A stretch of 64,000 nt of DNA from Flexibacter flexilis DSM 6793 (GTDB lineage: Bacteria; Bacteroidota; Bacteroidia; Cytophagales; Flexibacteraceae). Every line of letters starts with the position of its first letter. Within the stretch, counting starts at the first letter, position 1. Positions 49,374 through 53,419 of this stretch are shown one piece after another. A program made the position numbers and the translations under genes. The notes under the pieces are model-generated. The model was given only the letters and a program-made list of their open reading frames with translations, was not told the DNA's origin and ran no database searches. Location of the stretch: contig NZ_FOLE01000003.1 in the NCBI RefSeq assembly GCF_900112255.1, positions 248,001 to 312,000 of the forward strand, written 5' to 3'.

Positions 49374-49407
49374 TTTTGTTTTTACGAAAAGCGTCCGCGT
49401 ACTTTGC
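49374..49407 (+). promoter_or_regulatory. Candidate promoter of the cysteine operon
   Basis: TTTTG (49374-49378), 21 bp, then TACTTTGC (49400-49407). The -7 box is one base short of TAnnTTTG. It would place transcription start near 49413, about 18 nt before the first leader ORF. Confidence 0.5.
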
Positions 49408-49430
49408 AAAAGTATTAAGGTCATATCGCA

Positions 49431-49556
49431 ATGGCTTTATCAAATATCAGACAAATGACAAAGAACGTTAACTTTTACAATCAAATCGCTGCTGCAACAA
49501 TGTGTTGTTGTTGTTGCTGTATGGCTATGCCATACTTGGAAGATTGTATCGGTTAA
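49431..49556 (+). CDS. Cysteine leader peptide 1 (41 aa, six consecutive Cys)
   Basis: Short ORF starting ATGGCTTTATCA and ending GGTTAA. The 41-residue product contains MCCCCCCMAM at residues 24-33: six Cys codons in a row (five TGT, one TGC) with Met before and after. Nine of these ten residues contain sulfur. A further Cys lies three codons from the end. It resembles no protein I know and has no role after translation that I can infer. Its position before an intrinsic terminator and a cysteine synthase gene marks it as an attenuation leader whose ribosome stalls when Cys-tRNA is scarce. A GTATGGC-TAT-GCCATAC hairpin (49519-49535) follows the Cys run and may pause polymerase. Confidence 0.82.
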   Translation: MALSNIRQMTKNVNFYNQIAAATMCCCCCCMAMPYLEDCIG

Positions 49557-49626
49557 AAGATGACCATAAACTTATACCCAACTTTAGGGATAGGCTCTCC
49601 GATACAACATCGAAGAGCCTTTTTTT
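49544..49626 (+). terminator. Attenuator 1: terminator with competing antiterminator
   Basis: Terminator: AGGCTCTCCGAT (49592-49603) pairs with ATCGAAGAGCCT (49609-49620), one mismatch, loop ACAAC, then six T. Antiterminator: TTGTATCGG (49544-49552), inside the last leader codons, is exactly complementary over 9 bp to CCGATACAA (49599-49607), which includes the end of the terminator's left arm. Ribosomes stalled on the Cys run leave 49544-49552 free; ribosomes at the stop codon (49554) cover it. Confidence 0.8.
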
Positions 49627-49653
49627 ATGCCTTTATTTCATTTCCCAAACACA

Positions 49654-49764
49654 ATGACTCAAGATTTTAACATAGCGGTATCGGTACAAAACAACGCAAA
49701 CAGCCTTTGCGCCATGATGGCGTGTTGTTGTTGTTTCGCTGCGTCCCGACGATGCCGTATGTAA
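49654..49764 (+). CDS. Cysteine leader peptide 2 (36 aa, four consecutive Cys)
   Basis: Second short ORF, ATGACTCAAGAT to ATGTAA, 27 bp past the first terminator. The 36-residue product contains CAMMACCCC at residues 19-27 and one more Cys near the end; the run is four TGT codons. It shares no sequence with leader 1 outside the Cys/Met cluster, so it is not a simple duplication. No promoter is visible between the two units, so it should be reached only by polymerase that escaped terminator 1. Confidence 0.8.
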   Translation: MTQDFNIAVSVQNNANSLCAMMACCCCFAASRRCRM

Positions 49765-49827
49765 ACTCCTATCCAGTTGCTTATACACACAAGGAAGGTC
49801 TTACGGAACATCGTAAGACCTTTTTTT
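49752..49827 (+). terminator. Attenuator 2: terminator with possible antiterminator
   Basis: Terminator: AAGGTCTTACG (49795-49805) pairs perfectly over 11 bp with CGTAAGACCTT (49812-49822), loop GAACAT, T-run to 49827. Antiterminator candidate: ATGCCGTA (49752-49759), in the last leader codons, pairs with TACGG..CAT (49802-49811) with a 2-nt bulge, again the end of the left arm plus the loop. Confidence 0.72.
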
Positions 49828-49871
49828 ATTGCCCAAATATTTGTTTTCCAACGATTTATATTTTACTCCCA

Positions 49872-50804
49872 ATGGCACACGAAGTAGAAACATACCCGAC
49901 AATTGAGGCAAGAATCGGCCTGATAGCGCGCCAAATCGGCAATACGCCACTGCTGCCAATCAGGTATTTGCACGCCAATCCGAAAGTGAAAATTTATGCA
50001 AAAGCGGAGTGGTCGCAACTGTCGGGCAGCGTGAAAGCAAGAGCCGCCTTCAACATCATCAGGCAGGCCGTTGCGCAAGGTCATTTGCACGAAAACAAAA
50101 CCTTGCTTGATGCTACAAGCGGTAACACTGGCATTGCGTATGCCACGATTGCCAGAGAATTAGGGATTTCGGTGGCTTTGTGTTTGCCCGAAAATGCCAG
50201 CATCGAACGCAAGCAAATACTCGAATCGTTGGGCGTGAATATTATCTATACTTCAAAGTTTGGGGGAACGGACGAGGCGCAAGAAGTGGCCAAAGAATTA
50301 GCCGAAAAATACCCAGAACGCTATTTCTACGCCGGCCAGTACACCAACGACAACAATTGGAAAGCGCATTATTACGGCACAGCCGAAGAAATACTCAAAC
50401 GCCAACCCGACCTTAACTACTTCGTGGCGGGGCTGGGAACTACGGGGACTTTCGTGGGTACGTCGCGCCGCCTGAAAGAAGTAAATCCTGACATACAAGT
50501 AGTTGCCTTGCAGCCCGATTTTGCACTACACGGCCTTGAGGGTTGGAAGCATCTGGAAACGGCCATTGTCCCGCAAATCTACGATGCAAGCGTGGCAGAC
50601 CGCCATTTGGAAATAAGCACGCCACGCGCCTACGAGCTTATCAAACTTTTGTACGAAAAAGAAGGCTTGCTGGTCAGTCCTTCGTCGGCGGCCAACATCG
50701 CGGGAGCTTTGCAACTGGCCAACGAAATCACGGAAGGCACTATCGTAACCGTTTTGCCCGACAACGCCGACAAATATTCTGAAGTCATTAAGAAAATATT
50801 ATAA
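49872..50804 (+). CDS. cysM: Cysteine synthase of the CysM type
   Basis: PLP enzyme that makes cysteine by beta-replacement. 310 residues from the ATG at 49872; the open frame runs back through leader 2 and its terminator in another frame and is not real there. K55 in SGSVKAR binds PLP; TSGNTG (82-87) holds the substrate; GLGTTGTFVGT binds the phosphate. The segment HGLEGWKHLETAIVPQIYD places a Lys where mycobacterial CysM has Arg220, which selects O-phosphoserine. With a JAMM peptidase and a CysO-like domain next door, the sulfur donor is probably the carrier's thiocarboxylate rather than free sulfide. Regulated by the two upstream attenuators. Confidence 0.88.
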   Translation: MAHEVETYPTIEARIGLIARQIGNTPLLPIRYLHANPKVKIYAKAEWSQLSGSVKARAAFNIIRQAVAQGHLHENKTLLDATSGNTGIAYATIARELGISVALCLPENASIERKQILESLGVNIIYTSKFGGTDEAQEVAKELAEKYPERYFYAGQYTNDNNWKAHYYGTAEEILKRQPDLNYFVAGLGTTGTFVGTSRRLKEVNPDIQVVALQPDFALHGLEGWKHLETAIVPQIYDASVADRHLEISTPRAYELIKLLYEKEGLLVSPSSAANIAGALQLANEITEGTIVTVLPDNADKYSEVIKKIL

Positions 50805-50815
50805 CCCAAAAAGCA

Positions 50816-51250
50816 ATGTTACATTTTAAGGACAATACCGAAGCTCAAGTAATTGCCGACGCGCTACATACATTTCCTGACGAATGTTGCGGCTTTTTGC
50901 TCGGCCACGAAACCGAAAACGACCGCTTTATTACGGAAATTATTGTGGTGGAAAATGCTAAAGATGGCGACAAACGCCGCCGTTTTGAAATTACGCCACT
51001 GGATTATCTGAAAGCCGAACGTTATGCCGAAGACAAAAAACTTACGCTGTTGGGCGTGTATCATTCGCACCCCAATCACCCATCTGTTCCCAGCGAACAC
51101 GACCGCGTAGTAGCGCAGCCCTTTTTCTCGTATGTGATTGTGGCCGTGAGCGAAAAAACGTTTGTTTCGTTGCAATCTTGGCGACTCAACGAGGATTTTC
51201 AGTTTGAAGAAGAGGCCGTACATCTGGCCAATTTCGCTACTTCACTTTAA
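50816..51250 (+). CDS. JAMM/MPN+ metallopeptidase, Mec-like
   Basis: 144 residues, cytoplasmic. Complete zinc site: E23 in PDECCGFLLG, H83 and H85 in YHSHP, S93 and D96 in SEHD. Bacterial JAMM proteins of this size cut after the terminal Gly-Gly of ubiquitin-like sulfur carriers; mycobacterial Mec releases cysteine from the CysO-Cys adduct, and QbsD- or HcyD-type enzymes trim carrier precursors. Lying 11 bp after cysM and just before the carrier fusion, it likely does one or both jobs here. Confident of fold and metal site; the exact reaction is inferred. Confidence 0.88.
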   Translation: MLHFKDNTEAQVIADALHTFPDECCGFLLGHETENDRFITEIIVVENAKDGDKRRRFEITPLDYLKAERYAEDKKLTLLGVYHSHPNHPSVPSEHDRVVAQPFFSYVIVAVSEKTFVSLQSWRLNEDFQFEEEAVHLANFATSL

Positions 51251-51317: not shown

Positions 51318-52736
51318 ATGGCTACGATAATCATTCCTACCCCGCTTAGAAAATTTACGAACCAACAATCACGCGTAGAAGTGGGCGGCAACACCATTCA
51401 GGAAACATTAGCAGAGCTTACGCTCAATTTTCCTGATTTGAAGAAAAATCTTTTTGACGAAAACGGCCAGATTAGAGGCTATGTAAATATTTTCGCAGGC
51501 GACGAAGACATTCGCAACCTTCAGCAAGAAAACACACCCGTAAACGGCCAAACAACCATTAGCATTATCCCCGCCATTGCGGGCGGAAGCGGTGCGCTGG
51601 ACGATATTACTTTTTCTAAAGAAGAATATGCGCGTTATAACCGCCACATCATTATTCCTGACTTTGGCTTGGAAGCACAAAAAAAATTAAAAGCTGCTAA
51701 AGTGCTGGTGATTGGTTCGGGTGGTTTGGGAAGTCCGTTGCTGTTGTATTTGGCGGCGGCTGGTGTGGGCAATATTGGTATTGTGGATTTCGATACGGTG
51801 GACGACAGCAATTTGCAACGCCAAGTGCTTTTCGGAACAGAAGATATTGGCAAGCCAAAAGCCGAAGCCGCCCAAAAGCGTTTGCAAAGCCTGAATCCGT
51901 ATATCAACATAGAAATTTACAAAACACAGCTTACGTCCCAAAACACATTGGAACTTATCAGCCAATACGATGTTGTAGCAGACGGGACGGACAATTTTCC
52001 GATACGCTATTTAGTGAATGATGCCGCCGTTTTGGCAGGCAAACCCAACGTTTACGCCTCCATTTTTCAGTTTGAAGGCCAAGTTTCGGTATTCAACTAC
52101 ACAGATGCCAACGGCGTAACGGGGCCAAATTACCGCGACTTGTACCCGACACCTCCCGAACCTGGCTTAATTCCGAATTGCGCGGAAGGTGGCGTGTTGG
52201 GCGTGCTGCCTGGTATTATTGGCAGCTTGCAAGCCAACGAAGTAATCAAGGTTATTACGGGCGTGGGCGAACCGCTTAGCGGGCGTTTCTTTGTATTTGA
52301 TGCGCTTACGTTCCAGACCCGAACACTGAAAATTACCAAACGCGCCGACGCGCCCGCCATCACTGGCCTGATAGATTATGAGCAATTTTGCGGCGTAAAA
52401 GCCGTTGAAAGAAAGCTAAAGGAAATCAGTGTGGAAGAGTTTGCACAATGGCAGAACAACGGCGAAGACATCCAAGTAATTGATGTGCGCGAGCCTGCCG
52501 AATACGAGCAAATCAATATTGGGGCACTGCTTATCCCGTTGGGAACGGTAGCGCAACGCGCCGACGAAATTAGCCGAAACAAAAAAGTAGTAGTGCATTG
52601 CAAATTGGGCGGCAGAAGTGCCAAAGCCATTCGGACATTAGAAGACGAGTTTGGTTTTGATAACTTGTACAACCTCAAAGGCGGCATTACGGCAATCGAG
52701 CAATCGGAATTATTTGCAAAATCAATTCATATTTAA
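51318..52736 (+). CDS. CysO-like sulfur carrier fused to MoeZ-type E1 enzyme and rhodanese
   Basis: 472 residues in three parts. Residues 1-90 are a ubiquitin-like carrier resembling mycobacterial CysO (start IPTPLRKFT, middle GYVNIFAGDEDIR, end ISIIPAIAGG with Gly89-Gly90). After a short linker, residues 98-345 are an adenylating ThiF/MoeB domain: nucleotide loop VIGSGGLGSP (131-140), DFDTVDDSNLQRQ, and C288 in PNCAEGGVLGVLPG. The zinc CxxC pairs of MoeB are absent. Residues about 366-472 are a rhodanese with active C428 in VHCKLGGRS. The protein could charge the carrier with sulfur taken by the rhodanese. Gly90 is internal, so cleavage before Ser91 is required first. Confidence 0.9.
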   Translation: MATIIIPTPLRKFTNQQSRVEVGGNTIQETLAELTLNFPDLKKNLFDENGQIRGYVNIFAGDEDIRNLQQENTPVNGQTTISIIPAIAGGSGALDDITFSKEEYARYNRHIIIPDFGLEAQKKLKAAKVLVIGSGGLGSPLLLYLAAAGVGNIGIVDFDTVDDSNLQRQVLFGTEDIGKPKAEAAQKRLQSLNPYINIEIYKTQLTSQNTLELISQYDVVADGTDNFPIRYLVNDAAVLAGKPNVYASIFQFEGQVSVFNYTDANGVTGPNYRDLYPTPPEPGLIPNCAEGGVLGVLPGIIGSLQANEVIKVITGVGEPLSGRFFVFDALTFQTRTLKITKRADAPAITGLIDYEQFCGVKAVERKLKEISVEEFAQWQNNGEDIQVIDVREPAEYEQINIGALLIPLGTVAQRADEISRNKKVVVHCKLGGRSAKAIRTLEDEFGFDNLYNLKGGITAIEQSELFAKSIHI

Positions 52737-52780: not shown

Positions 52781-53419
52781 ATGGCAACATTGCGTTTAGG
52801 GGACATTGCTCCCAACTTCACGGCAGAAACAACAGAAGGTACAATTGATTTTTATAATTATTTGGGCGACGGTTGGGGCGTTTTGTTCTCGCATCCCGCT
52901 GACTTTACGCCAGTTTGCACGACCGAATTGGGCGCAACTGCCAAACTTGGTGAAGAATTTAAGAAAAGAAATGTAAAAGTGTTGGCATTGAGCGTGGACC
53001 CGTTGGGTAAGCACCAAGAATGGATTAACGACATTAACGAAACTCAAAACACGGTGGTTAATTTCCCGATTATCGCCGATGCTGACCGCAAAGTTTCGGA
53101 GCTTTATGATTTGATTCACCCAAATGCCAGCGAAACTTTTACGGTTCGTTCGGTATTTGTGATTGGGCCAGACCACAAAGTAAAGCTGATTATCACTTAT
53201 CCAGCTTCTACGGGTCGTAACTTTAACGAACTTTTGCGCGTGATAGACAGCTTGCAACTTACGGCCAACTATCAGGTAGCCACGCCAGCCAACTGGCAAA
53301 GCGGCGAGAAAGTGGTAATCGCTACGTCGGTGAAAGACGAAGAAATCGAAGCGAAATTCCCGAAAGGTTACGAACGCGTAAAACCATATTTGCGTCTTAC
53401 GCCTCAGCCGAATCTATAA
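52781..53419 (+). CDS. 1-Cys peroxiredoxin (Prx6 type)
   Basis: Reduces hydroperoxides. 212 residues with the peroxidatic Cys46 in HPADFTPVCTTEL, the Prx6-like GKHQEWINDI, and a C-terminal domain that ends KPYLRLTPQPN. No resolving Cys is apparent, so it is the 1-Cys kind and needs an external thiol. It is 44 bp downstream of the sulfur-transfer gene and precedes the operon's terminator. Its place in a cysteine operon suggests protection of thiol or thiocarboxylate intermediates, but this is inference. Confidence 0.93.
   Translation: MATLRLGDIAPNFTAETTEGTIDFYNYLGDGWGVLFSHPADFTPVCTTELGATAKLGEEFKKRNVKVLALSVDPLGKHQEWINDINETQNTVVNFPIIADADRKVSELYDLIHPNASETFTVRSVFVIGPDHKVKLIITYPASTGRNFNELLRVIDSLQLTANYQVATPANWQSGEKVVIATSVKDEEIEAKFPKGYERVKPYLRLTPQPNL

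Follow-up and report, generated by a model that had tools for sequence, protein, structure and literature searches.

Two leader units before a cysteine operon

The window analysed here, a 64,000-nucleotide stretch of the Flexibacter flexilis DSM 6793 genome, contains adjacent cysM-, mec- and cysO/moeZ-like genes, which together are the predicted gene set of a CysO-dependent cysteine biosynthesis operon. Two short ORFs in tandem precede them, each with a run of Cys codons and an intrinsic terminator behind it, and the ORFs, runs and terminators all lie where the initial annotation of this DNA had placed them (Table 1). This arrangement raises the question of whether the two units are cysteine-responsive regulatory devices and, if so, whether they act in series. 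Attenuators of the trp, his and leu type combine regulatory codons, an antiterminator, a terminator and an operon for the sensed amino acid. The window shares this architecture, the level at which the comparison was made, and differs by having cysteine as the sensed amino acid and by its serial duplication. Its leaders are short ORFs rich in codons for the operon's amino acid, and in both units an intrinsic terminator is situated between the leader ORF and the first gene. By every feature that can be tested on the sequence the design is that of a trp-type attenuator, and regulation is predicted. We propose, with a probability of about 85%, that these are two ribosome-mediated, cysteine-sensing transcription attenuators placed in series before the cysM-mec-cysO/moeZ operon.

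Table 1. Leader units and operon genes, in window coordinates
Feature	Position	Strand	Remarks
Leader ORF1	49431-49556	+	41 codons, six consecutive Cys codons; product MALSNIRQMTKNVNFYNQIAAATMCCCCCCMAMPYLEDCIG, then stop
Cys run 1	49503-49520	+	TGT TGT TGT TGT TGC TGT; putative ribosome stall site
Small hairpin GTATGGC-TAT-GCCATAC	49519-49535	+	between run 1 and the antiterminator strand; possible pause hairpin
Antiterminator strand, unit 1	49544-49552	+	TTGTATCGG; directly 5' of the stop codon (49554-49556); partner CCGATACAA at 49599-49607
Intrinsic terminator 1	49592-49626	+	stem-loop 49592-49620, T-run up to 49626
Leader ORF2	49654-49764	+	36 codons, four consecutive Cys codons; product MTQDFNIAVSVQNNANSLCAMMACCCCFAASRRCRM, then stop; additional in-frame ATG at 49627
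Cys run 2	49723-49734	+	TGT x4; putative ribosome stall site
Antiterminator strand, unit 2	49750-49759	+	CGATGCCGTA; partner TACGGAACATCG at 49802-49813
Intrinsic terminator 2	49791-49826	+	from folding
cysM-like PLP-dependent cysteine synthase (PALP)	49872-50804	+	from gene family
mec-like JAMM/JAB peptidase	50816-51250	+	from gene family
Fusion of ThiS/MoaD-like sulfur carrier (CysO-like), MoeZ/ThiF-like adenylyltransferase and rhodanese	51318-52736	+	from gene family
1-Cys peroxiredoxin	52781-53419	+	possible last gene of the operon

Terminators and specificity of the design

Both terminators had been described as perfect, which holds for terminator 2, whereas in terminator 1 an inner 4-bp helix is flanked on either side by one mismatch. 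The two fold at -14.7 kcal/mol (terminator 1, z -4.0) and -19.3 kcal/mol (terminator 2, z -7.3), and no shuffled sequence equals either value. An automated promoter and terminator scan of the window listed neither sense terminator, both of which are visible from their folds and T-runs. A search of the window against Rfam gave no match at the gathering score, and the leader peptides had none in NCBIfam. As had been observed earlier, the two peptides share no sequence, the products of ORF1 and ORF2 failing to align (E=53).

Counting both strands, there are 59 distinct runs of at least four Cys codons in the genome. The combination of a short ORF, such a run and a hairpin within 150 nt, where a hairpin had to be terminator-like and stronger than about -13 kcal/mol, is found at both window units and nowhere else among the 59 runs. 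Upstream of cysM the combination of leader and terminator occurs on the sense strand in 57 of 118 loci and on the antisense strand in 1 of 118, these loci being not fully independent because some represent the same genome entered twice (L003 and L105, L081 and L165, identical on the tree). None of 27 paralogous cysK/CBS-type loci has the combination upstream.

Antiterminators beside the leader stop codons

Folding indicates an alternative helix in both units, formed between RNA beside the leader stop codon and the terminator's 5' side; classical ribosome-mediated attenuation uses the same arrangement. The initial annotation, which suggested that the leaders are kept by selection for their Cys/Met feature, missed this antiterminator just 3' of the Cys run. 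We modelled stalling by setting the ribosome edge at the stalled Cys codons, with the RNA made to just before the 3' arm of the terminator. The antiterminator helix is then the minimum free energy structure for unit 1 at each of the five stall positions modelled and for unit 2 at Cys 3 and 4, a competing hairpin being favoured in unit 2 when the stall is modelled at Cys 1-2. When the ribosome is instead placed at the stop codon, the terminator is the one helix left to form in either unit. The completed terminator is a more stable fold than the antiterminator, and the switch must therefore be kinetic.

In the window alone this complementarity is within chance: pairing of the post-run segment with the terminator arm and its loop gave p-values against shuffles of 0.11 for unit 1 and 0.28 for unit 2, and a longer segment gave 0.02 and 0.45 respectively. 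Across 84 related units, the post-run RNA pairs with the 5' arm of its own terminator better than dinucleotide shuffles do at p<=0.05 in 61 and at p<=0.01 in 32, and the units' own terminator arms outrank the arms of other units (median rank 0.08, 80 units); as the shuffle and rank tests both count related loci as independent, p-values combined from them are overstatements. The distance from leader stop to terminator varies little, with a median of 30 nt (IQR 27-35). The terminator class varies by lineage (CCTTTCC, CTCCAC, GCCCCTCC or CTCACC) and the antiterminator strand varies to match. Folding and family statistics together thus point to the trp-type relation, in which the antiterminator excludes the terminator and is itself covered once a ribosome reaches the stop codon.

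Related loci across Bacteroidota

Orthologues of cysM were sought in 59 relatives, in 391 genomes of the order, 396 of the phylum and 395 of the class, and in the genome_contigs collection. They are rare and patchy in the order (10 of 391 genomes, that of F. flexilis included), and none of the ten genomes sampled from the window's own family yielded a CysM of the window type, a distribution suggestive of transfer or repeated loss. Horizontal transfer of the operon together with its leader is possible. The survey of Cytophagales and their relatives for poly-Cys ORFs upstream of cysM, which the initial annotation had recommended, reveals a design that recurs throughout the phylum. In many Chitinophagales, Saprospiraceae, Flavobacteriales, Cytophagales and Rhodothermales-like genomes the orthologous operon has a poly-Cys leader and a terminator upstream; leader and terminator are present in Chitinophagaceae, Saprospiraceae, Flavobacteriales, Microscilla, Reichenbachiella and in genomes that we tentatively assign as Rhodothermales-like and Ignavibacteria-like. 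Acidobacteriota with the same operon have no poly-Cys leaders. Upstream matches in L146 and L175 (Acidobacteriota and Chloroflexota) were dismissed as probable chance. On a quick tree the window CysM clusters with sequences from Flavobacteriales/Crocinitomicaceae.

The cysM-mec-cysO/moeZ synteny is conserved in most loci, and L072, L100, L122, L130, L163 and L250 likewise have a peroxiredoxin next to the operon. In L072, L122, L163 and L100, where cysM comes after a peroxiredoxin or EamA transporter gene, the leader is still found at the first gene of the operon. For example, in Taishania pollutisoli (L100:2361-3478) it is found before an EamA-type transporter gene, which precedes cysM and whose product is possibly a cysteine or O-acetylserine exporter. 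Among 12 further loci gathered after the criteria were fixed, six have the leader and the other six have cysM close behind another gene; in the three of these scanned with Pfam that gene is of the sirohaem-synthase type (two) or encodes a peroxiredoxin (one). A contig labelled Rhodopirellula (L140, a Planctomycetota MAG) carries a Flavobacteriales-like cysM with leader, and its placement is probably a binning error.

A terminator-less form

The same genome encodes a third poly-Cys leader (L178:598-741, G000:C4:38597-38740), in which six Cys codons are followed by the stop and which precedes an O-acetylhomoserine sulfhydrylase-type (metY-like) gene. Of 30 metY loci, taken from 30 genomes of the order including that of F. 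flexilis, 19 have a similar leader whose run lies at or close to the stop. No T-run terminators were seen in the metY leaders read for them, so their mechanism would differ. In the cysM leaders of Balneolales (Fodinibius, family f43), too, the Cys run is right at the stop codon and a T-run terminator is lacking. Leaders of this Balneolales type in L070, L071, L073, L074, L076, L077, L124, L129, L133 and L138 end in CCCCCC(S/R/K) and a stop. At several such loci a long-loop hairpin comes next (TTACCGG...CCGGTAA type, the sequence varying and the pairing being kept), in a region of C/U-rich RNA without a T-run.

A broader reading, for and against which we find the balance even, is that Bacteroidota possess a phylum-wide cysteine-attenuation regulon based on poly-Cys leaders. 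In this regulon the CysM-Mec-CysO operon would be controlled by leaders that terminate transcription and have repeatedly been duplicated in series, and metY, like the cysM of Balneolales, by leaders that have no terminator and act through Rho or on translation. The recurring doubling would then have evolved as a serial gate: with two sensors for one amino acid, repression would be multiplied and the response made sharper.

Methionine and the promoter

The Met codons of the leaders had been taken as a hint that methionine might be sensed as well. Across 80 leaders the frequency of Met is 0.046 beside the runs and 0.051 elsewhere in the leaders, which argues against this as a general property, although Met does flank the runs in the closest relatives of the window. 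Methionine is accordingly best regarded as a possible, lineage-specific lead only, general sensing not being supported. Met codons flank both Cys runs of the window and otherwise only those of L097, L098 and L100.

The Bacteroidota promoter consensus is TTTG-N17-23-TANNTTTG. It is absent at the leader, and the window has six matches to it, a chance-level number. A candidate formed by TTTG at 49375 and TACTTTG at 49400 is one base short of the consensus and is not claimed as a promoter.

Proposed mechanism and alternative explanations

When Cys-tRNA is ample, the leader ribosome would pass the Cys codons and reach the leader stop, where it would cover the antiterminator strand; with that strand covered the terminator would form and RNA polymerase would stop. 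When Cys-tRNA is scarce, the ribosome would stall in the run, and the strand beside the stop codon would stay free to pair with the emerging 5' side of the terminator, allowing the polymerase to continue. Having passed unit 1, the polymerase would meet a second, independent copy of the device, and full expression would therefore need a stall twice; a steep response from the two gates is a plausible prediction. Translation of the leaders, stalling, termination in vivo, one transcript through both units and the response to cysteine itself are what we infer from the design. The original prediction of Cys-responsive attenuation by two units in series in a member of Bacteroidota is, as a prediction, supported, and it is strengthened by the antiterminators at the leader stops and by the phylum-wide conservation.

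It is unlikely that only one unit is functional and the other a decaying or newly arising copy, leaving an ordinary single attenuator. Most related loci do carry one unit, as in the cultured Pseudoflavitalea rhizosphaerae KACC 18655 (L112) and Reichenbachiella agariperforans DSM 26134 (L114), unit 2 of the window has the weaker antiterminator and the shorter Cys run, and the tandem state changes about 10 times on the quick CysM tree, with 3 changes forced by starred branches. Nevertheless, both window units retain the full set of parts, and two units are kept before the operon in at least 16 loci, including family f12, several Saprospiraceae and some Flavobacteriales (L075 and L147 being completed by eye for this count). 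L097, from the window's smallest supported group, has two recognisable units in the same order, with products MMVCCVCMQSRNCCIG and MKSKINNITAKICCMEKTIPIFCV, each ending in a stop and followed by a terminator (read by eye). In its unit 1 the antiterminator TTGTATCGG and the partner CCGATAC are identical to those of the window, while the outer terminator stem is changed. The C-run filter scored this locus as having none, its Cys clusters being interrupted, and with both of its units missed, the numbers given for tandem and for positive loci are minimum values.

The remaining alternatives concern the transcript, the output and the peptide. Two separate transcripts, each with its own promoter and one attenuator, would give no serial gating, and the promoter consensus was indeed not found upstream of ORF1; such an arrangement is nonetheless quite improbable, with about 28 nt from T-run 1 to the start codon of ORF2 and about 4-82 nt between the units of other tandem loci leaving little promoter room. 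Control of Rho-dependent termination or of cysM translation by the leader, as proposed for mycobacteria, would suit the Balneolales cysM leaders and the metY leaders, whose runs are at the stop codon and are followed by no T-run terminator. For the window it is a highly improbable mode, since here and in most Bacteroidota cysM units there are strong intrinsic terminators, T-runs and antiterminators. Cysteine-rich peptides that act in trans, through metal or redox binding, next to ordinary terminators are hardly credible: six adjacent cysteines could bind metal and the peTrpL leader peptide does act in trans (PMC7298713), but the Cys cluster is the sole feature common to the peptides, the conserved feature 3' of the run is complementarity to the terminator, and the position of the leaders is fixed to sulfur operons.

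Relation to known systems

The proposed serial attenuators have partial counterparts elsewhere. In Actinobacteria, leaders with Cys runs and without obvious terminators were reported by Seliverstov et al. (PMC1262725). The polycysteine leaderless uORFs of mycobacteria are cysteine-responsive according to Canestrari et al. 2020 (doi 10.1111/mmi.14498) as related in PMC9094748 and PMC13236596 (also PMC4633059), and PMC13236596, citing the same work, refers to them as translation attenuation. Like these uORFs, the window ORFs are short, contain a run of Cys codons and lie upstream of cysteine genes. In the mycobacterial leaders, however, the run is near the stop and no obvious terminator is present (PMC1262725), whereas in the window it is well 5' of the stop and comes with an intrinsic terminator and an antiterminator in each of two units. 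The mycobacterial precedent invoked by the initial annotation thus stands for the input, the Cys runs, and not for the output mechanism, since those leaders are without obvious terminators and are cited as translation attenuation. The uORFC-8-2 motif upstream of cysS in Rhodobacterales (PMC8632094) has been predicted to act, like the window units, as a ribosome-mediated transcription attenuator with Cys codons and an intrinsic terminator; it differs in having two Cys codons and a single unit, before a tRNA synthetase gene of Alphaproteobacteria.

Two leader-ORF attenuators in one transcript are known from Salmonella mgtCBR (PMC3641672), where they respond to different signals (ATP and proline) and are additive, in contrast to the Cys runs in both window units. 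With regard to the operon, the Mycobacterium tuberculosis CysM-CysO-Mec-MoeZ cysteine pathway (PMC3227635) likewise has a cysteine synthase, a JAMM peptidase, a sulfur carrier and a MoeZ with rhodanese; in the window CysO, MoeZ and rhodanese are fused in one predicted protein. Within Bacteroidota, leader-peptide attenuation of amino-acid operons has been mentioned in general terms for Flavobacterium psychrophilum (PMC9723704), and short ORFs have been reported from 5' UTRs of Bacteroides thetaiotaomicron (PMC7366714). Our literature search (main texts, mostly of open-access journals) found no cysteine case in Bacteroidota, in agreement with the initial annotation, and no same-signal tandem of leader ORFs. 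The tandem pair, which had been thought new, is not unique to this locus, recurring as described above, though it has no such counterpart in that literature. The single or double poly-Cys design recurs across Bacteroidota, and we found no earlier description of it there.

Implications

In the literature found, cysteine-specific attenuation is confined to mycobacteria and other Actinobacteria and to the predicted cysS motif of Rhodobacterales. If our proposal is true, it would extend cysteine attenuation to a large environmental phylum and connect it with cysteine synthesis by way of a sulfur carrier. Many small ORFs that have been missed would be explained as well, and many natural single and double pairs would be available for direct tests of how attenuator duplication affects gain and leakiness.
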